Shown one piece after another: positions 424-24,832 of a stretch of 64,000 bases of DNA. The stretch lies in the NCBI GenBank assembly GCA_026399515.1, contig JAPLQT010000122.1, forward strand, positions 62,001 to 126,000, read 5' to 3'. The notes beneath the pieces are model-generated. The model was given only the letters and a program-made list of their open reading frames with translations. It made no database searches and was not told the DNA's origin. The stretch's first letter is position 1; each line of letters opens with the position of its first letter. The stretch is from Pseudomonadota bacterium. Its GTDB lineage: Bacteria; Pseudomonadota; Gammaproteobacteria; Burkholderiales; Rhodocyclaceae. A program made the position numbers and the translations under genes.

Positions 424-1617
424 CTAGATTTCCCGGTTGACCTGGATGGTCCAGCGGCAAGCCTGCACCAGGCTCTGGCAATAACTTGCCGGCGTCAGCC
501 CGACGGCCGCCAGGCGTTCGGCGAAATCCGGTCCGGGTGCGTGCTCGGATTGCTCGACGAGAGCCAGCACGGCGCCGATCCGGCCGCCGCGTTTCAGCAG
601 CGCATCGACCACGTCTTCGGCAAGATTCAGCGGGGTCAGGATGTCTTCCAGGGGCATGGCGAACAGCGCTTCCAGCAGGGAAAACATGCCGACCATGAAG
701 CCGCGTTCCTGTTCCTCGCGGTCGCCGCCGCTGGCCTTGCAGAGCGCTTCGATCAGGCTGGCGCGCAGGGCGGCGCGATCCATCAGCGGGTTGTGTGCGT
801 CGCCGCGATTCTGCGCATACAGCAACAATTGCAGCCAGCGCTGCAACTGGCGGCGGCCGAGGATGGCGATGGCCTGGCGGAAATTGGAAATCTTGTTGGC
901 CAGCGAGAAACTCACCGAGTTCACCAGCTTGAGCAACTGGTAGGACAGCTCGGGCGTCTGTTTCAGCAAGACCTCGATGGCGTGCGCTTCGGCATCGCTC
1001 GCCACCAGGCCCAGCAGCTTCAGCAGCAGGGCGCGCGACGGGCCATGCTGCTGCTGATTCGGCGGCGGATGCAGGGGATATTCGCCGGCGAACAGGCTGC
1101 ATCCGGCGGCCAGGGTCTGCGCGAAACATGCGGGGGTATCCGTGCGAACCGCGAGGTGTGGGCCGGGCAGATGTCTGAGGATTTTCGGCGGAGCGTTGTT
1201 GCCGCTATCGGGGGCGTCCACGGCGATCGCCGTGACGGCCTCGTGCAGCTTATCGCCCGGCGGCGGCAGACCCTCGGCCATCACGCGGAAGCCGAGAAGC
1301 CTGAGTCGCTCCATATCCCCCGTCGCCAGCGGATCGACGCAATGCGCCAGCGGGATCAGCAGGGTGATGCGCTGGATCGGCAGTTGCTGGGCCAGTGCAT
1401 TGGAGAGAGCAGTCGGGTCGGCCAGCGGCACGATGCAAGGCATTGCGCCGAGTGCCTCGTCGAGGCCGAACTCGTCGAACAGCCGGGCCAGATGGTCCAA
1501 TCGCGTGCCGGGTGAAACGGCGAGCAGCACCGCCGTCCAAACGTTGCGGGCGTTGGTCACCGGATACAGGTAGGGCGGCGGAAAATATTCCGTATTGGAT
1601 GATTCAGGCGTGGACAT
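424..1617 (-). CDS. EAL-HDOD (YuxH-type) signalling protein with degenerate EAL domain
   Basis: Roughly 397 residues. The N-terminal ~190 residues have the outline of an EAL phosphodiesterase, ending in LFAGEYPLHPP where active EAL proteins have a QGFFFSRP-like end. The metal-binding EAL signature is not visible, so this half is probably catalytically dead. From about residue 205 an HDOD domain follows (LLKLLGLVASDAEAHAIEVL, then QLLKLVNSVSFSLANKISNF). HDOD domains lack the HD phosphohydrolase residues and act as protein scaffolds in regulation. The start at 1617 (MSTPESS) is preferred. An in-frame ATG at 1650 would add 11 unremarkable residues. It is encoded just upstream of a PAS protein on the same strand, probably as an operon. 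Confidence 0.8.
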   Translation of the reverse strand: MSTPESSNTEYFPPPYLYPVTNARNVWTAVLLAVSPGTRLDHLARLFDEFGLDEALGAMPCIVPLADPTALSNALAQQLPIQRITLLIPLAHCVDPLATGDMERLRLLGFRVMAEGLPPPGDKLHEAVTAIAVDAPDSGNNAPPKILRHLPGPHLAVRTDTPACFAQTLAAGCSLFAGEYPLHPPPNQQQHGPSRALLLKLLGLVASDAEAHAIEVLLKQTPELSYQLLKLVNSVSFSLANKISNFRQAIAILGRRQLQRWLQLLLYAQNRGDAHNPLMDRAALRASLIEALCKASGGDREEQERGFMVGMFSLLEALFAMPLEDILTPLNLAEDVVDALLKRGGRIGAVLALVEQSEHAPGPDFAERLAAVGLTPASYCQSLVQACRWTIQVNREI

Positions 1618-1674
1618 GGGTTTCAGACGAGCTTGGTTCGACGACAGCATGACAGGTTTTGTGGGATTCTTGGA

Positions 1675-2313
1675 TCATTTCCGCCCGAGCCGCGCCGGGA
1701 AGCTGTCGATTCCAAGCTCTGTCACCACCGCGTCGAGAGGCATATCATGTGGTCCCGGGTAGATGCTGTCGACCCGCGCCAGCTCGAATCCGACGCCGAT
1801 CGCCACGGGCCGCTGTGCGAGTGCCGCGAGCTCCGCCAGGGTCCGGTCGAAGTATCCACCGCCGTAGCCGAGGCGGTATCCCGCCGCATCGAAGGCATTC
1901 ACCGGCATCAGCAGCACATCGGGCGTCAGCATTTCACCGCTTGCGGGGTAGTGGATGCCGTAACGGTCGATCAGCATCTCGCTGTCCGGCCGCCAGGCGC
2001 AAAACTTAAGCGCCGCATCGGGGGTCATCACCCTGGGCAGGCAGGCCTGTACGCCCGTGGCGATGAGCCGGGTCACCAGCGGCCGGCAGTCGAACTCGGC
2101 GCGTATGGGCCAGCAGAAGCCCAGTCGGCTCGGCCGGCAACGTTGCAACAAGCCGGCCAGATGAGCTTCGATGGCAGTCGACAAGCGGCCATGCTCTTCG
2201 GCGGGGAGCGCCTCGCGCGCGGCGATCTTTTCGCGGCGCAACGCCGAACGTTCGACGGAGCAAACAGGTCTACTTTCCAAGGCTTTATCCGGCGGTGGGG
2301 TGGTGTGAGGCAT
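1675..2313 (-). CDS. ygfA: 5-formyltetrahydrofolate cyclo-ligase
   Basis: A 212-residue protein of the MTHFS/YgfA family, which converts 5-formyl-THF to 5,10-methenyl-THF using ATP and returns a stored folate to the one-carbon pool. Visible landmarks are the early basic helix containing LRREKIAAREALP, the central VTRLIATGVQACLPRV segment, and the family's glycine-rich C-terminal motif LGYGGGYFDRTL at about residue 160. Length is typical. It is divergent from the lytic transglycosylase gene with only 46 nt between the two starts. In many proteobacteria 6S RNA lies beside ygfA. That gap is too short to hold it here. Confidence 0.93.
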   Translation of the reverse strand: MPHTTPPPDKALESRPVCSVERSALRREKIAAREALPAEEHGRLSTAIEAHLAGLLQRCRPSRLGFCWPIRAEFDCRPLVTRLIATGVQACLPRVMTPDAALKFCAWRPDSEMLIDRYGIHYPASGEMLTPDVLLMPVNAFDAAGYRLGYGGGYFDRTLAELAALAQRPVAIGVGFELARVDSIYPGPHDMPLDAVVTELGIDSFPARLGRK

Positions 2314-2359
2314 GTGTTATTCTTGAACGATCGATGCTACCCACGTTAAGAGTTTATCC

Positions 2360-4318
2360 GTGAAACACTGGCTTTGGCTACTCTCCTTCATGCCACTTCT
2401 GGCGCTGTCTTCGCCCGGCGACGACAAGGTGCTGGCGGCGCGCGAGGCTTTCCGCAACGGCGAGCGGATCAAACTCGGGAGGCAAGCCGACGCAATGAGT
2501 TCCGTGGCTGCCCAGGGAAGCCAGCATGATCTCCAACCCTGGGTCGAATACTGGCGCCTGCAGCAGCGCCTGGACGACGGCGACAGCGAAGGGGTGAGGG
2601 ATTTCCTGGCGACCCAGAAAGGCTCCTATCTCGCCGAGAAACTGCGCAGTGAGTGGCTCAAATTGCTCGGCAAGCAGCGCAAATGGGATGAGTTCCTCGG
2701 CGAATACGCCGCGCTGGCACAGCCTGACCAGGAACTGGCCTGTTACGAGCTGCAAGGCCGCCTGAACAGCGGACAGGGCCCGGCGGCGCTCGACGAAGTG
2801 CGGCCGCTGTGGACCACCGTGCTGGACTTGCCGGATTCCTGCTTCCCGCTGATGGAGCAACTGATAGTTGCCGGCCGCATCGATGCAAATGACGTCTGGG
2901 AAAGGCTGCGGCGCTTGCTGGAGGCCAAGAAACTCAAGGCCGCCAAACAGACGGCGGCCTATTTGCCGGCGGCACAGTCACCTTCGGCCAAGACCCTGGA
3001 CGCGATTGCCGATAAGCCCTTGCGCGCGCTCGACAAGCCGACGAAGAATTTTGCCGCGACGCGTGTCGGCCGCGAGATGGCGCTGTATGCGGTGCAACGA
3101 TTGGCCCACGCCGATCCTATCGACGCCGCAAAGCATTGGCAGAAAATCGAGAATCAGTTTTCCGAGGCCGAGCGCGGCTATGCCTGGGGCCAACTGGCCT
3201 GGCAAGCGGCGCAGCAGCACCTGCCTGAAGCCTTGATCTGGTACGGGCTGGCCGCCAATATCCCGCTTTCCGAGGAGCAATTGGCCTGGCAGGCGCGTGC
3301 TGCCTTGCGCGCCCATGACTGGCCCATGGTCATGCGCGCGATCGATCGCATGCCGGCGAAAATGTCGGCCCAGCCCGACTGGAGCTACTGGCTGGCGCGG
3401 GCGCTGATGGTCCATAACCGTCCGGACGAAGCGCGCGCCCTGTACCAGAAGATTGCCGGCCAGCCAAATTTCTACAGCAACCTCGCCGATGAAGAGCTCA
3501 ACCGGCTGATCATCGTGCCGCCACGTGCCGCGCCTCCCACCCCAGAGGAACTTGCCGCCGCGCGCGACAATCCGGGATTGAGGCGCGCCCTGGCCTTGTT
3601 CCGTCTCGACCTGCGCCTGGAGGGCTTGCGCGAGTGGAACTGGACGCTGCGCGGCATGAACGACCGCCAGTTGCTCGCCGCCGCGGATCTGGCGTTGCGC
3701 AGCGAGGTATTCGACCGCGCCATCAGCGCGGCCGACCGCACCCAGGTCCAGCACGATTATGCCTTGCGTTACCTCGCACCCTTTCGCGACAGCGTTGAGC
3801 CGCTGGCGAAGGAAATGGCGGTGGATAGCGGCTGGGTGTATGGCTTGATGCGCCAGGAAAGCCGCTTCATGATGAATGCCCATTCCGGCGTCGGCGCCAA
3901 GGGCCTGATGCAACTTATGCCGAAGACGGCGCAATGGGTGGCGAAGAAAATCGGCCTGAAGGACTATCATCCGACGCGGGTGGCCGACCTGGGTACCAAT
4001 CTGACGCTCGGCACCAACTACCTGCGGATGGTTCTCGCGAGTCTCGACAACCACCCGGTCCTGGCCTCGGCCGCCTACAATGCCGGCCCGGGCCGGGCCC
4101 GTCGCTGGCGCGCCGAAGTGCCGCTGGAAGGCGCCATTTACGCCGAGACCATTCCCTTCAACGAAACCCGCGACTATGTCAAGCGAGTGATGAGCAACGC
4201 GGTGTACTACTCGGCCCTGTTCGAGGATAAACCGCAGTCGCTGAAAATCAGGCTCGGCACCGTCGGTCCGCGCGGGAGTGGCGCCGCCAAGACCGCGGCT
4301 TTGGAAGACCTGCCATAA
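2360..4318 (+). CDS. slt: Soluble lytic murein transglycosylase (Slt70-like)
   Basis: A 652-residue periplasmic enzyme that cleaves the MurNAc-GlcNAc bond of peptidoglycan, forming 1,6-anhydro-MurNAc. Residues 1-18 form a signal peptide (MKHWLWLLSFMPLLALSS). Residues ~25-450 are an alpha-helical superhelix with tetratricopeptide-like repeats. The catalytic SLT domain begins near residue 485. Its active-site Glu lies in LMRQESRF at about residue 499, followed by GLMQLMPKTA and AAYNAGPGRARRW near 570. These are the classic family-1 transglycosylase motifs. Length matches Slt70. It stands as a single-gene unit between divergent ygfA and downstream cca. Confidence 0.93.
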   Translation: MKHWLWLLSFMPLLALSSPGDDKVLAAREAFRNGERIKLGRQADAMSSVAAQGSQHDLQPWVEYWRLQQRLDDGDSEGVRDFLATQKGSYLAEKLRSEWLKLLGKQRKWDEFLGEYAALAQPDQELACYELQGRLNSGQGPAALDEVRPLWTTVLDLPDSCFPLMEQLIVAGRIDANDVWERLRRLLEAKKLKAAKQTAAYLPAAQSPSAKTLDAIADKPLRALDKPTKNFAATRVGREMALYAVQRLAHADPIDAAKHWQKIENQFSEAERGYAWGQLAWQAAQQHLPEALIWYGLAANIPLSEEQLAWQARAALRAHDWPMVMRAIDRMPAKMSAQPDWSYWLARALMVHNRPDEARALYQKIAGQPNFYSNLADEELNRLIIVPPRAAPPTPEELAAARDNPGLRRALALFRLDLRLEGLREWNWTLRGMNDRQLLAAADLALRSEVFDRAISAADRTQVQHDYALRYLAPFRDSVEPLAKEMAVDSGWVYGLMRQESRFMMNAHSGVGAKGLMQLMPKTAQWVAKKIGLKDYHPTRVADLGTNLTLGTNYLRMVLASLDNHPVLASAAYNAGPGRARRWRAEVPLEGAIYAETIPFNETRDYVKRVMSNAVYYSALFEDKPQSLKIRLGTVGPRGSGAAKTAALEDLP

Positions 4319-19922: not shown

Positions 19923-21428
19923 TCAGCCTGCTGACAAGCCGCGCCGGTAATGAATCGCTTCGGCGACATGCGGGCCGCGTACGGTCTCGATCCCGGCCAG
20001 GTCCGCCACCGTGCGCGCCACCTTGAGTATGCGATGGTAGGCGCGTGCCGACAGCGACAGGCGGGCGATGGCCTGTTTCAGGAGTTGTGTGCCCGCTTCG
20101 TCGGGCAGGCAGTGCTCGTCAATCTCCGCGGTGCTCAACAGCGCATTGGCTTTGCCCTGTCGCGCCAGCTGCCGGTCGCGGGCCCGGGTAACGCGTTGGC
20201 GAACGTCGGCAGTAGTCTCACCGTCAGCCTGCGTCTGCAATTCCGCATCGGACAGCGAGGGCACGTCCAGCATCAGGTCGATCCGGTCGAGCAAAGGGCC
20301 GGAGAGTTTGCCGCGATATTTCGCCACCTGGTCGGGCGTGCACCGGCACTTGCCATTGGCATGGCCGAGCCAGCCGCAAGGGCAGGGATTCATCGCCGCG
20401 ACCAACTGGAAGCGGGCTGGAAAATCCGCGCGGCGGGCGGCCCGGGAGACGCAGATGTGGCCGCTCTCTAGCGGTTCGCGCAGCGCTTCCAGCACCCGTC
20501 TTTCGAACTCGACGAGTTCGTCGAGAAACAGCACGCCGTGGTGCGCCAGGGAAATCTCCCCCGGGCGCGGCACGCTGCCGCCGCCGACCAGCGCCGCGCT
20601 GGAGGCAGAATGATGTGGCGATCGGTAAGGCCGGCGCCCCCAATTCTCGATGCGGAAGCTTCCGGCCAGGGATTGCACGGCGGCGCTTTCCAAGGCTTCC
20701 GCTTCGGTCATCGCCGGCAGGATGCCGGGAAAGCGGCTCGCCAGCATCGACTTGCCTGTTCCCGGCGGACCGGACATCAGCAGACTGTGGCTGCCGGCCG
20801 CGGCGACTTCCAGCGCACGTTTGGCGTGGGCCTGACCTTTGACTTCGGCGAGATCGGGATACCGCGGTTCAGCCAGCAGGGCCGCGCCAGCGTAAGGCTG
20901 GATGAGCTGTTGTCCGTTGAGATGGGCGCACACCTCCAGCAGGGTGCGCGCCGGGAGTATTGTGGCCGAGCGCACCAATGAGGCTTCGGGAGCGCTATCG
21001 GCAGGCAGGATGAAACTTCGATTGGCGGTGTTCGCGCCGGACATGGTGGCACACATCGCCAGCGCGCCGCGTATGGCGCGCAACTCGCCGCCCAGCGCCA
21101 GTTCGCCGGCGAATTCGTAATCGTCCAGGCCGTCGGCCTTGACCTGGCCAGAGGCGATCAGGATGCCCAAAGCGATCGGCAGATCGAAACGCCCGGACTC
21201 CTTGGGGAGATCGGCGGGCGCCAGATTCACCGTAATGCGCCGCTGCGGAAATTCGAAGCGGCAATTCTGGATCGCCGCGCGCACGCGGTCGCGAGCTTCC
21301 TTGACTTCCGTATCCGGCAAGCCGACCAGCGTGAAGGCGGGCAGGCCGGGCGCCAGATGCACCTCGACCGTAACTTCGGGAGCATCCATGCCGGACAGGG
21401 CGCGAGACTTGAGGACGGCGAGCGACAT
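19923..21428 (-). CDS. comM: YifB/ComM family Mg-chelatase-like AAA+ ATPase
   Basis: A 501-residue member of the ComM family, a hexameric helicase that promotes branch migration during integration of transformed DNA. The N-terminal Lon-protease-like domain starts MSLAVLKSRALSGMDAPEVT. The AAA+ core has Walker A GPPGTGKSMLASR near residue 220 and Walker B VLFLDELVEF near 300. The zinc-like PCPCGWLGHANGKCRC segment is at ~350, and a C-terminal Mg-chelatase domain ends the protein. It looks intact. A second, degraded copy of its first ~100 nt sits 3.3 kb upstream at 24.7-24.8 kb. Confidence 0.95.
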   Translation of the reverse strand: MSLAVLKSRALSGMDAPEVTVEVHLAPGLPAFTLVGLPDTEVKEARDRVRAAIQNCRFEFPQRRITVNLAPADLPKESGRFDLPIALGILIASGQVKADGLDDYEFAGELALGGELRAIRGALAMCATMSGANTANRSFILPADSAPEASLVRSATILPARTLLEVCAHLNGQQLIQPYAGAALLAEPRYPDLAEVKGQAHAKRALEVAAAGSHSLLMSGPPGTGKSMLASRFPGILPAMTEAEALESAAVQSLAGSFRIENWGRRPYRSPHHSASSAALVGGGSVPRPGEISLAHHGVLFLDELVEFERRVLEALREPLESGHICVSRAARRADFPARFQLVAAMNPCPCGWLGHANGKCRCTPDQVAKYRGKLSGPLLDRIDLMLDVPSLSDAELQTQADGETTADVRQRVTRARDRQLARQGKANALLSTAEIDEHCLPDEAGTQLLKQAIARLSLSARAYHRILKVARTVADLAGIETVRGPHVAEAIHYRRGLSAG

Positions 21429-21475
21429 GACAAATGAAAACGACGGCGGAAGCGGCGATTATAAGCTGACGCCGC
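21330..21475. repeat. Direct repeat, copy 1 (5' end of intact comM)
   Basis: These 146 nt cover the first ~99 nt of comM and ~47 nt upstream. They are repeated in the same orientation at 24693-24832 with about ten substitutions and one 6-nt gap by eye. The two copies bracket the protease locus and a transposase fragment. Confidence 0.85.
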
Positions 21476-21788: not shown

Positions 21789-22394
21789 CTAGCGAGTCAC
21801 CGTTTCTTTCCACCAGTTCGGACTGGCGGAGACCACGTCGCCGGAGTTCTGAATTGCGTTGGCTGTCTGTAGGGACACTTCTCCTGGAAGGGTATCGAGA
21901 ACGTACCAATTTCCGATAATGTTGAGTTGATGGCGAACACTGTATCCATGCGCCGCGACCCATTCACGCACTTGTCCGTCGGACCAACCCGGGTTGAAGT
22001 TAACGATCACGCCGCCCGGCAGAGCCATCAAGCGCCCGGCTGGTGAATTGCCCTCACGAAACACCGGAGATTGGTTTCCGGTCACCCCGGCTGACAGGCT
22101 GGCGGGAGCGTCTATATTGCGAATGGTGACAAATGGGGTTTCAACAGCGTTGTCGTCCGATGCTCTTGGCTTGGCACTGAGTGCTGTTGCACGAGGGGTG
22201 CTCGCGAATTCCGCCACCAACCCAGGCTGTACCGTTACTGTTCGTTCATTGCCGCCATCATAGTAGTGTGTGACCTGGGCCAGCGAACTGCCGGCCGACA
22301 GAGCCAAAACCAAACTCACCGCGGCACACTCGCTGAGGCGTCGGGGGGCGCAAACCCGGACATTGCCGGCGGCATTGCGTTGAATGTGGGTCAT
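21789..22394 (-). CDS. Secreted external chaperone/prodomain protein of the adjacent subtilase (ORF2-like)
   Basis: A 201-residue exported protein. Residues 1-39 look like a long signal peptide ending ALSAGSSLAQ. The C-terminal ~95 residues (from SPVFREGNSPAGRLMALPGG to VVSASPNWWKETVTR) have the look of subtilase pro-regions: GRLMALPGGVIVNF, then INxIGNWYVLDTLPG, then SLQTANAIQ. In Aeromonas sobria the kexin-like protease ASP lacks a propeptide and is matured by ORF2, encoded immediately downstream. This gene has the same position, size class and type of sequence. The ATG at 22394 follows AGGAGA by 6 nt, and the protease stop lies only 13 nt upstream, so translation is probably coupled. Function is inferred, not demonstrated. 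Confidence 0.7.
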   Translation of the reverse strand: MTHIQRNAAGNVRVCAPRRLSECAAVSLVLALSAGSSLAQVTHYYDGGNERTVTVQPGLVAEFASTPRATALSAKPRASDDNAVETPFVTIRNIDAPASLSAGVTGNQSPVFREGNSPAGRLMALPGGVIVNFNPGWSDGQVREWVAAHGYSVRHQLNIIGNWYVLDTLPGEVSLQTANAIQNSGDVVSASPNWWKETVTR

Positions 22395-22407
22395 CTTCGT
22401 CTCCTGA

Positions 22408-24417
22408 TCAGTAGCCATATGCTTTTATGTTCCAAGAAGCCAGTGCGCCGGTATTGCCGGCTTTACCATCACGCACTGACAACGTCCAATTGCCGTCTGC
22501 CGACTCGCCGATCAGCCTGGCGATACCAAACCGCGTCCCTCTGGCCATCGAAGCTCCGCACGCCACCGTGGCGCTGTCCTTCTTGCACTCATGAACGACG
22601 GAAAGATTGCTGACAGTGCCCGCAGGACTGGTCAAGTTGATTTCCAGGTCGCCCACTTCAGCATGGTCTGTAGTGAGGTTGACATCAATAAACTCAAGCT
22701 TGCCGATGCCGCTGCCGGCCAAGTGGATCGTGCTGGTAACGGCGGCACCGTTGTCTGGAATGGCGGTTGCAGGAGTTGCCGAGGCAGTCGCGGTCTTCTG
22801 CGCCGCGATATTCTTCCAAGTCTGGGCCGCCTTGACGGCCGCAGTCGCGTCGATGGCGCCATATCCATAATTATGGTTTACGCGAAGACCGCCACCGTTG
22901 GTCACCCAGTCGCTATTGCCCGGGTCATTCTTGCGGGCAGTGGTGGCCAGGATCTGCCGCACATCCCGCCAAGTCAGCGCCGGGTTGGTTTCCAGCAACA
23001 GGGCTACGACGCCTGATGCCTCGGGAGTCGCTGCGGACGTGCCGTTCATGCAACGCGTGTAGTTGGGTGCGCCGACATAATCATTCGCTGACGATGTGCC
23101 GTTGTTGTACCCTGGGACACCACTTACATCGGTAGTGGTTGTCGTATGCTCGGCGCATGACTCACCCCCAAAGGCCATTACCAGGATGTTCGAGCCGGGT
23201 TCCGAGTAGGATGAACGTTTTCCTTGATCGGTGAGAGAGCCGATCGCCAGTACCCCTTGATAGTTTGCCTGGCCGTCATAGTCAGAGCGATCAACTGGCG
23301 CTCCATTGCCGGCAGCCCAAGTATAGATGGCACCTTTCCCTCCCCGCCCCGTAAGAGTCCCGGTATCGATGGCCTGCGTCCACGCTGCGTCGGACGGATA
23401 CAATAAACCAGTGCCATCCGCCGCGCCATAACTATTACTGTAGATGTGATTGGAAGCCAGATCCTTGGTTACGGAGTCTGCGCCGAAGTCACCCGTTGTA
23501 GCCGACAGCAGGTTGTAGCCGACCAATTGTGCGTTGTAGGCCACGCCGGTAACACCGATGCCATTATTGCCTTTGGCCGCGGCGAGACCGCCACAGCTGG
23601 TGCCATGCGAACTGGCGGAAGAAGACGGATCGCCATAGGCGTTCACTCGGTAATCCCAACTCTTACCGGCGACAATGTTCAAATCTTCATGACTTATGTC
23701 GAGGCCATCATCTATGACGGCGATCTGGATCCCGGTGCCGGTGGCAAAATACCAGGCACGAGACACATTGAGGTCTTCCCCGGCCTTTCCTGGCACGCCA
23801 TCTGGTCCCGCTTGCCCGGTGTTCTTGAGGTGCCATTGGTCTCGAAACAAAGGATCGTTTGGGACAATATCGGCTTCCGGACCACTGCGTGCGGTAGTCG
23901 TGGTGGTGGTGGTAGTAGTCGTGGTTGGCGCGGTCGAAGTGGTGGTGGTCGGCGCCACAGTAGAGGTAGTCGTCGCCCCGGTAGTCGTGGTCGTAGTCGT
24001 GGTCGTCGTCACCGTTGGTGTCGGTACCGTATAGACCAGTCCTACGTGGCCGGGCAAGCCGAAGTCTGCTTCCGACTTGCCGTAAGCAACATAAATGACC
24101 AGCCCGAGCAATGACGAGAGATCGAAGTCAGCAACCGTCACGGTTTTCGGAGCGCCTGCGGCCAACGTTAATGTCGCCGCGACTGGGAATGCCTGACCCG
24201 AGTATACGGTCCAGTTCAGGGTGGTCGAACCGCGCACAATCGCTATGCCCTGCCACACCGCGGCGATATACACGTTGTTGGCGCCGGTCTCAGAGGCATC
24301 CGGCGTGATGGTGGCGGTCACAACACCGTTGTTGAATACCCCAGTGACGCTGGCGCCCTGCGCGGAAAACGCGACCAGCATCAGGAGTGCCGCAAAAAGC
24401 TTGAGAAGTTTTTTCAT
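22408..24417 (-). CDS. Secreted kexin-like S8 serine protease with P domain (ASP-type)
   Basis: A 669-residue exported protease. A signal peptide (MKKLLKLFAALLMLVAFSAQG) is followed by a ~100-residue beta-rich N-terminal domain and a Thr/Pro-rich linker (~residues 129-177). The S8 catalytic domain has Asp ~235 (AVIDDGLDISHEDL), His ~271 (SHGTSCGGLAA), oxyanion Asn ~371 (WAAGNGAP) and Ser ~461 (MNGTSAATPEASGVVALLL). A C-terminal proprotein-convertase P domain (~540-669) follows. No inhibitor-type propeptide precedes the catalytic domain. That function appears to be encoded by the next gene. The ATG at 24417 follows AGGAAC, preferred over an ATG at 24474. Bases look less GC-rich than the neighbours, suggesting transfer. 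Confidence 0.88.
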   Translation of the reverse strand: MKKLLKLFAALLMLVAFSAQGASVTGVFNNGVVTATITPDASETGANNVYIAAVWQGIAIVRGSTTLNWTVYSGQAFPVAATLTLAAGAPKTVTVADFDLSSLLGLVIYVAYGKSEADFGLPGHVGLVYTVPTPTVTTTTTTTTTTGATTTSTVAPTTTTSTAPTTTTTTTTTTTARSGPEADIVPNDPLFRDQWHLKNTGQAGPDGVPGKAGEDLNVSRAWYFATGTGIQIAVIDDGLDISHEDLNIVAGKSWDYRVNAYGDPSSSASSHGTSCGGLAAAKGNNGIGVTGVAYNAQLVGYNLLSATTGDFGADSVTKDLASNHIYSNSYGAADGTGLLYPSDAAWTQAIDTGTLTGRGGKGAIYTWAAGNGAPVDRSDYDGQANYQGVLAIGSLTDQGKRSSYSEPGSNILVMAFGGESCAEHTTTTTDVSGVPGYNNGTSSANDYVGAPNYTRCMNGTSAATPEASGVVALLLETNPALTWRDVRQILATTARKNDPGNSDWVTNGGGLRVNHNYGYGAIDATAAVKAAQTWKNIAAQKTATASATPATAIPDNGAAVTSTIHLAGSGIGKLEFIDVNLTTDHAEVGDLEINLTSPAGTVSNLSVVHECKKDSATVACGASMARGTRFGIARLIGESADGNWTLSVRDGKAGNTGALASWNIKAYGY
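23888..24033. repeat. Thr-codon-rich low-complexity linker region of the protease
   Basis: Runs of ACN codons (CCN mixed in) encode two Thr blocks separated by GATTTSTVAPTTTTSTAP. Such threonine linkers usually join domains of secreted enzymes and are often glycosylated in other systems. The tract is prone to length change by slippage. Confidence 0.8.
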
Positions 24418-24692: not shown

Positions 24693-24832
24693 CGTGAAGG
24701 CGGGCAGGCCGGGTGCCAGATGCACCTAGGCCGTAACTTCGGGAGTATCCATGTCGGACAGTGTGCGAGACTTGAGGACGGCGAGCGACATGACAAACGG
24801 CGGCGGAAGCGGCGACTATAAGCTGTCGCCGC
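24693..24832 (-). pseudogene. Decayed duplicate of the comM 5' end (direct repeat, copy 2)
   Basis: Matches 21330-21475 in the same orientation at roughly 93% identity by eye, with one 6-nt deletion. From the ATG at 24789-24791 the frame reads MSLAVLKSRTLSDMDTPEVT, clearly comM, and then meets a TAG about 20 codons in. Homology stops at 24693, so only the first ~33 codons are present. It lies 30 nt from the 3' end of yceI. That is probably the ancestral context of the comM upstream side before the protease island appeared. Confidence 0.85.

Follow-up and report, generated by a model that had tools for sequence, protein, structure and literature searches.

A kexin-like protease gene followed by a candidate gene for its external pro-region in a betaproteobacterium

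The DNA analysed here (the window) is a stretch of 64,000 nt from contig JAPLQT010000122.1 of a Rhodocyclaceae bacterium (GenBank assembly GCA_026399515.1). On its minus strand lie two open reading frames (ORFs), 22408–24417 (669 aa) and 21789–22394 (201 aa). The first encodes a kexin-like protease of the S8 family and the second a small protein, labelled P0002, that we propose to be the external pro-region, or chaperone, of that protease; 'chaperone' below denotes this proposed role of the small protein and its relatives. The protease stop codon (22408–22410) is separated from the downstream ATG (22394–22392) by 13 nt, and an AGGAG ribosome-binding site stands 6 nt before this ATG; both ORFs, their spacing and the ribosome site are as described in an initial annotation of this DNA. 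A promoter and terminator scan of the locus gave no terminator and 4 promoter sites against 1.8 expected, and was not used. The features of the pair are as follows.

22408–24417, minus strand: protease gene, kexin-like S8 plus P domain, 669 aa, without a cis pro-domain
24352–24417, minus strand: signal peptide of the protease, about aa 1–22, read by eye
24013–24354, minus strand: N-terminal all-beta module, about aa 22–135, an immunoglobulin-like sandwich in the model (predicted structure and genome copies)
23887–24012, minus strand: Thr-rich linker of the protease, about aa 136–177, from the sequence
22858–23739, minus strand: Peptidase_S8 catalytic domain, aa 227–520 (Pfam)
22423–22695, minus strand: P domain, aa 575–665 (Pfam)
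22401–22405, minus strand: AGGAG ribosome-binding site of the 201-aa gene
21789–22394, minus strand: 201-aa secreted protein (P0002), proposed external pro-region/chaperone
22206–22277, minus strand: N-terminal beta element of the small protein, aa 40–63, inside the range aligned to ORF2 (3wqb_B)
21798–22067, minus strand: pro-domain-like strand-helix-strand-strand-helix-strand domain of the predicted model, aa 110–199
21792–21794, minus strand: codon of the C-terminal Arg201, proposed occupant of the S1 pocket by inference from ORF2 (PMC5638518)

The protease matches Peptidase_S8 (3e-43, aa 227–520) and P_proprotein (2.1e-15, aa 575–665) in Pfam, and its closest sequences in the Protein Data Bank (PDB) are kexin (7.7e-60), furin (6.7e-53) and ASP (1e-41), the Aeromonas sobria protease for which ORF2 is the external chaperone. 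It combines a kexin/furin-type S8 domain with a P domain, the architecture of an ASP-type protease. Its catalytic residues, placed through the standard subtilase motifs, we take to be D236, H271, N371 and S461. No pro-domain model was listed for it in Pfam at E up to 1; the other matches, Peptidase_S8_N (18.1 versus 30.5 bits) and New_glue (18.4 versus 31 bits), both fall below cut-off and lie over the Thr-rich linker. With a hidden Markov model (HMM) of the small-protein family, and E values up to 10 considered, no chaperone-like domain came up in the window protease or in any of 25 related proteases. A like scan of a kexin-like protease from the same bacterial family (L012), which is 46% identical to the window protease over aa 185–668, served as a positive control and returned a cis PF16470 S8_pro-domain at 1.8e-8. 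Pfam and the family HMM agree with the first description of this gene as an S8 protease with a P domain and without a propeptide, and its signal peptide was read by eye. The L012 protease (1063–3468) carries its cis S8_pro-domain together with a P domain and SLH domains.

The catalytic domain of the window protease is preceded by the signal peptide, the all-beta module and the Thr-rich linker. A cis propeptide, which the initial annotation had named as a possible objection, was looked for in this N-terminal region with L012 as control and none was found, aa 22–135 being all-beta. A pro-domain hidden in the N-terminal domain was likewise considered and rejected: the domain is all-beta, its model matches generic sandwiches (best Z 7.8), and the same module occurs on non-proteases, with three further copies in the genome on an Ice_binding protein (L051), a serpin (L052, 292–1992, minus strand) and a DUF1800 protein (L053). 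Among 130 genomes of the family the module was matched only in the window's own (E up to 1e-4), and we take it to be a secreted-protein module of this organism and not a pro-domain. The extra beta domain and Thr-rich linker reported earlier are real, but the beta domain is not special to the protease. In three relatives (L033, L034 and L035) the protease has a fibronectin-III-like N-terminus in the place of the beta module (for L033, Pfam fn3 at 22.3 bits, below the cut-off of 25; for L034 and L035, by eye), and the N-terminal domain seems to be exchanged among the relatives' proteases.

The 201-aa protein begins with a signal-like stretch, recognized by eye, and contains the motifs, NWYVLDTLPG and ASPNWW among them, by which its C-terminal half was first likened to a subtilase pro-region. 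As in the ASP/ORF2 arrangement, the gene for this secreted protein comes directly after the protease gene, the secretion signal being read by eye. Its gene is single-copy in its own genome, where the other matches have E about 0.2. Searches of Pfam, NCBIfam and the PDB with the window protein (phmmer and a 9-row profile) gave no useful match, and neither did NCBIfam with 21 family members. For PF18492 (ORF_2_N), which has a curated cut-off of 29.2 bits, P0002 gave no match and 2 of the 21 members matched weakly and below that cut-off (L031, 15.7 bits; L034, 12.4 bits). Fervidolysin_NPro-like (PF22148) did not match P0002 and matched 6 of the 21 members at E up to 1; when nine members were scanned singly, five matched, L035 alone above the cut-off (22.8 versus 21 bits).

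The AlphaFold2 (AF2) model of the small protein has a mean predicted local distance difference test score (pLDDT) of 79, with ten-residue means of 88–98 for residues 111–200. The first five rows of a Foldseek search with this model were PC1/3 pro-domain structures, four of them furin-bound (best E 0.022). The top row of VIA-align was 3wqb_B, that is, ORF2, the chaperone of ASP (root-mean-square deviation 2.5, 92 of 99 residues, model residues 40–201), so that the predicted model contains both the N-terminal element and the core of the ORF2 fold, at a Z of 7.7, under the tool's caution line of 8. The other pro-domain rows cover about residues 121–201; the range aligned to ORF2 includes the N-terminal element.

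A homologous domain was found fused to a protease. In a Tolypothrix plasmid, an S8 protease carries it in cis, N-terminal to the S8 domain (tblastn, 7e-4), and hhalign of the small-protein family against this domain gave E 7.5e-9 (probability 96), a value that refers to this one comparison alone. The earlier suggestion that the C-terminal half resembles a pro-region is upheld by both the predicted pro-domain fold and this homology to a cis pro-region. The Tolypothrix protease (L046, 2572–4707) has no Pfam P domain and lies near two CHAT-domain genes.

Relatives of the small protein were sought at several taxonomic levels. Across 199 genomes of the family, four matched at E up to 0.01, namely the window's own and three at 0.002–0.006; the latter (L008–L010) were set aside, there being no S8 protease in the ORFs inspected around them, and three other genomes of the genus in the same search had no match. 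The order search (300 genomes) gave eight matches including the own genome at E up to 0.001, and the phylum search (398 genomes) matched the own genome only. A pattern scan of genome contigs yielded 16 loci, among them Lautropia, Zeimonas, Sideroxydans, further betaproteobacteria, two metagenome-assembled genomes labelled Nitrospinales and one labelled Planctomycetota. The SPNWW motif was part of the scan pattern and is therefore not independent evidence for these 16 loci; the terminal Lys or Arg lay outside the pattern. In viral contigs 28 stretches fitted the pattern and none was confirmed, phages gave none, and the plasmid search returned three records, each a cyanobacterial S8 protease. 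The order search and the contig scan overlap (L019 = L028, L020 = L030, L021 = L037, L024/L026 = L040, L025 = L042) and were merged into an alignment (A4) of 21 rows, in which the window protein is joined by 19 full-length relatives and by the fragment L043.

For each of the 19 full-length relatives, the gene immediately upstream encodes a homologous protease (19 of 20 aligned relatives when the fragment is counted), two of these proteases (L031 and L036) being truncated at contig ends. The fragment was kept in the alignment and not counted as a pair: it is of half length, lacks a start, overlaps an antisense ORF and lies on a 3.5-kb contig without a protease. In 16 measured pairs the chaperone starts −13 to 229 nt from the protease stop, with starts chosen by us. 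Distances between chaperones and between proteases co-vary over 18 pairs (Mantel r 0.87; 0 of 5,000 permutations as high), and the pair nearest to that of the window (L038) has 57% identity over the last 110 chaperone residues and 69% over the protease region. The pairing of protease and small protein is more than chance.

The terminal residue of the small protein is basic in all 21 aligned members (Lys in 16, Arg in 5). The proteases have matching features: an acid in the loop that in kexin lines the S1 pocket, and a second acid (alignment columns of D334 and D381), both of which would be expected to interact with a basic residue at P1. In 27 proteases of the P0002 lineage the first acid is Asp (26) or Glu (1), and the second is Asp in 27 of 27. 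Seven other S8 proteins of the same bacterial family were aligned: L012 has both acids, the other six are without the first and five are without the second. Three ORF2-type proteases have Pro or a gap at the first position, with the second Asp present. In ORF2, the C-terminal Lys lies at the catalytic serine of ASP (PMC5638518).

We hold it to be very likely that the 201-aa protein is an external pro-region of the kexin-like protease, encoded by a gene of its own; it would help the enzyme to fold in trans and then plug its active site. The small protein would be exported separately from the protease and would help the catalytic domain, which has no pro-domain of its own, to fold. Its C-terminus would mimic the product of pro-domain cleavage; it would afterwards stay on the active site with the C-terminal basic residue in the S1 pocket, and the enzyme may be kept inactive until the small protein is degraded or released. 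Folding in trans, inhibition, the seat of the C-terminus and the timing of release are inferred from sequence and models, and the mechanism is very probably the same as that of ORF2. The fold, the recurrent pairing, the basic C-terminus and the homologous cis pro-region together support the assignment of an ASP/ORF2-type pair to this betaproteobacterium. The occurrence of such an operon here is by itself no novelty for the group, since one is already reported from Chromobacterium (PMC5638518). In our reading P0002 represents a second family of pro-regions encoded in trans, which has the same arrangement as ASP/ORF2 and is divergent in sequence.

Several results weigh against this interpretation. 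The window protein matches no pro-domain or ORF2 sequence model, and the profile search against these families that the initial annotation had called for came back empty for the protein itself. No Foldseek E-value falls below 0.001; the fold match taken alone would not suffice as proof of pro-domain identity, because a Z under 8 may mean a common arrangement and unrelated folds appear at Z 5–6. A terminal Lys or Arg is frequent in this DNA (77 of 215 long ORFs, many of them spurious), and because of this high background and the relatedness of the 21 rows we claim no P-value for it; moreover, the full-length ORF2-type proteins found here end in Lys, Arg and Phe (L045), so a basic end is not universal among them. 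Profile comparison with the ORF2-type proteins L044, L045 and L047 was weak (E 0.0064, probability 5.9), although it ran over the same domain and neither 200 column shuffles (0 of 200) nor the reversed alignment reached its score. Finally, protease and chaperone numbers are not 1:1 in three gene clusters.

These clusters are 20-kb regions, each with four proteases in tandem, and with two (L054), one (L055) and one (L056) chaperones; two of the contigs are titled Lautropia and one belongs to the same genus group. By a loose pattern, all 12 cluster proteases begin with a lipobox-like sequence, after which come linkers; none of the 12 has a chaperone domain in cis, and whole-genome searches with P0002 gave 2, 1 and 1 matches in the genomes of L054, L055 and L056. 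For the surplus proteases, either one chaperone serves several enzymes or unrecognized chaperones lie elsewhere. We suggest tentatively, at somewhat less than even odds, that in Lautropia-type genomes one trans chaperone acts as a shared folding factor for several lipid-anchored, propeptide-free kexin-like proteases (4:1). If so, a cell could switch a battery of surface proteases through one small protein.

The alternative that survives best accepts the proposed working of the pair and concerns its history: the split from cis to trans would be independent of that in ASP/ORF2 and the gene arrangement convergent, with the mechanism uncontradicted. We consider this rather unlikely, while giving it real weight. 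The comparison with ORF2 was made by fold and, for the sequences, by way of L044, L045 and L047, as ORF2-type queries (phmmer and profile) missed 3wqb_B among the PDB sequences; L044, L045, L047 and the frame-disrupted L048 each lie downstream of a kexin-like protease. PF18492 matched in 2 of 300 order-level genomes (1 over cut-off) and in 4 of 98 genomes of the family of G338 at E up to 0.01 (1 over cut-off, two control genomes being positive below it), that family search also yielding L049, which has no protease; its failure to match in 369 class-level genomes carries little weight, as the controls were silent too. The P0002 family matches the cis pro-region strongly and the ORF2-type proteins weakly, and a branch that separates the P0002-paired proteases from all others occurs in only 44% of bootstrap trees. 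Against this, the tree, built from 37 proteases, groups the three ORF2-paired enzymes in one clade (100/100), which arises from the same polytomy as three P0002-paired branches, with the cis-pro-domain L012 set apart from them (82/94), and the fold match to ORF2 spans both halves of the protein; the tree has a long ORF2 branch and one close cis outgroup. A single origin of the split for ASP/ORF2 and P0002 pairs is possible on these sequences.

A second alternative limits the small protein to inhibition: it would be a stand-alone inhibitor of pro-domain fold, shielding the cell from a protease that folds unaided. The structural matches include POIA1 (1v5i_B, Z 6.0), and two of the clusters (L055 and L056) have one small-protein gene beside four proteases. 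The target subtilisin of POIA1, however, has its own propeptide. PMC6993865 describes SUB1-ProM as a stand-alone propeptide-like inhibitor beside subtilase genes, and its target too has its own propeptide, whereas the window protease and the relatives tested yielded no cis pro-domain. The top fold match is moreover ORF2, over a range that takes in the N-terminal element, and we regard inhibition alone as improbable. A third alternative makes the small protein an unrelated secreted partner or substrate in the operon, its pro-domain likeness being a common alpha-beta arrangement such as the RRM-like, ribosomal and other unrelated folds show at Z 5–6. This is very improbable given the homology of the small protein to the cis pro-region of a cyanobacterial subtilase, the above-cut-off Fervidolysin_NPro-like match in at least one member (L035) and the recurrent, co-varying pairing.

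The genes of the protease and of its proposed external pro-region are situated between yceI and yifB, flanked by a direct repeat of the yifB/comM 5′ end.

21330–21475, no strand given: yifB/comM 5′-end copy on the side of the intact gene, repeat arm (sequence alignment)
24693–24832, no strand given: second, partial yifB 5′-end copy (130 of 146 aligned columns identical, 6 gaps)

In the congener G124 (L058) yifB follows yceI after 73 nt with nothing in between; two other congeners have no yceI within 1.5 kb of yifB. As the repeat flanks the pair and G124 lacks the pair, the lineage of the window probably gained it by insertion between yceI and yifB. The G+C content is 56–59% for the pair, 63–67% for yifB and 54–61% for the other flank, and composition adds little on this point because the range of the other flank overlaps that of the pair. 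The yifB/comM repeat looks like the trace that an insertion at the beginning of comM would leave.

A second family of trans pro-regions, outside the Pfam and NCBIfam models searched, would add 19 further full-length pairs and a homologous cis version. It would make testable how a folding pro-domain comes to be encoded in trans instead of in cis, and whether a single such pro-domain is enough for several proteases, and it would offer natural, separable chaperone/protease pairs for the bacterial production of kexin-like enzymes. By title, and among open-licence papers, no published description of the P0002 family was found.

In subtilases the N-terminal propeptide is an intramolecular chaperone, with ASP as the exception, according to one survey (PMC9549277), and ASP/ORF2-like operons are reported from Vibrio, Shewanella, Chromobacterium and Pseudoalteromonas (PMC5638518). 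ASP/ORF2 (PDB 3hjr, 3wqb; PF18492) resembles the pair described here in its S8 plus P-domain protease with the chaperone gene directly downstream, in the predicted fold, which is similar for the two parts of the chaperone, and in a basic C-terminal residue. It differs in that P0002 has no match at the Pfam cut-off and its family has the C-terminal motif SPNWW...K/R, that the window protease has an extra N-terminal beta module and Thr linker, and that the proteases of most P0002 relatives have lipobox-like starts, with more proteases than chaperones in some clusters. The fervidolysin-type pro-domain (PF22148) and the pro-region of Tolypothrix WP_045873625.1 are homologous by profile, with weak Pfam matches in several P0002 members, but are fused in cis before the S8 domain, whereas here the gene is separate and downstream. 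The S8_pro-domain of furin, PC1 and kexin (PF16470) shares the fold by structure comparison and precedes the same kind of catalytic domain, but in cis; no PF16470 match occurs in the P0002 family, while L012 of the same bacterial family has one. With POIA1 and Plasmodium SUB1-ProM, the P0002 family shares a separately encoded pro-domain fold.

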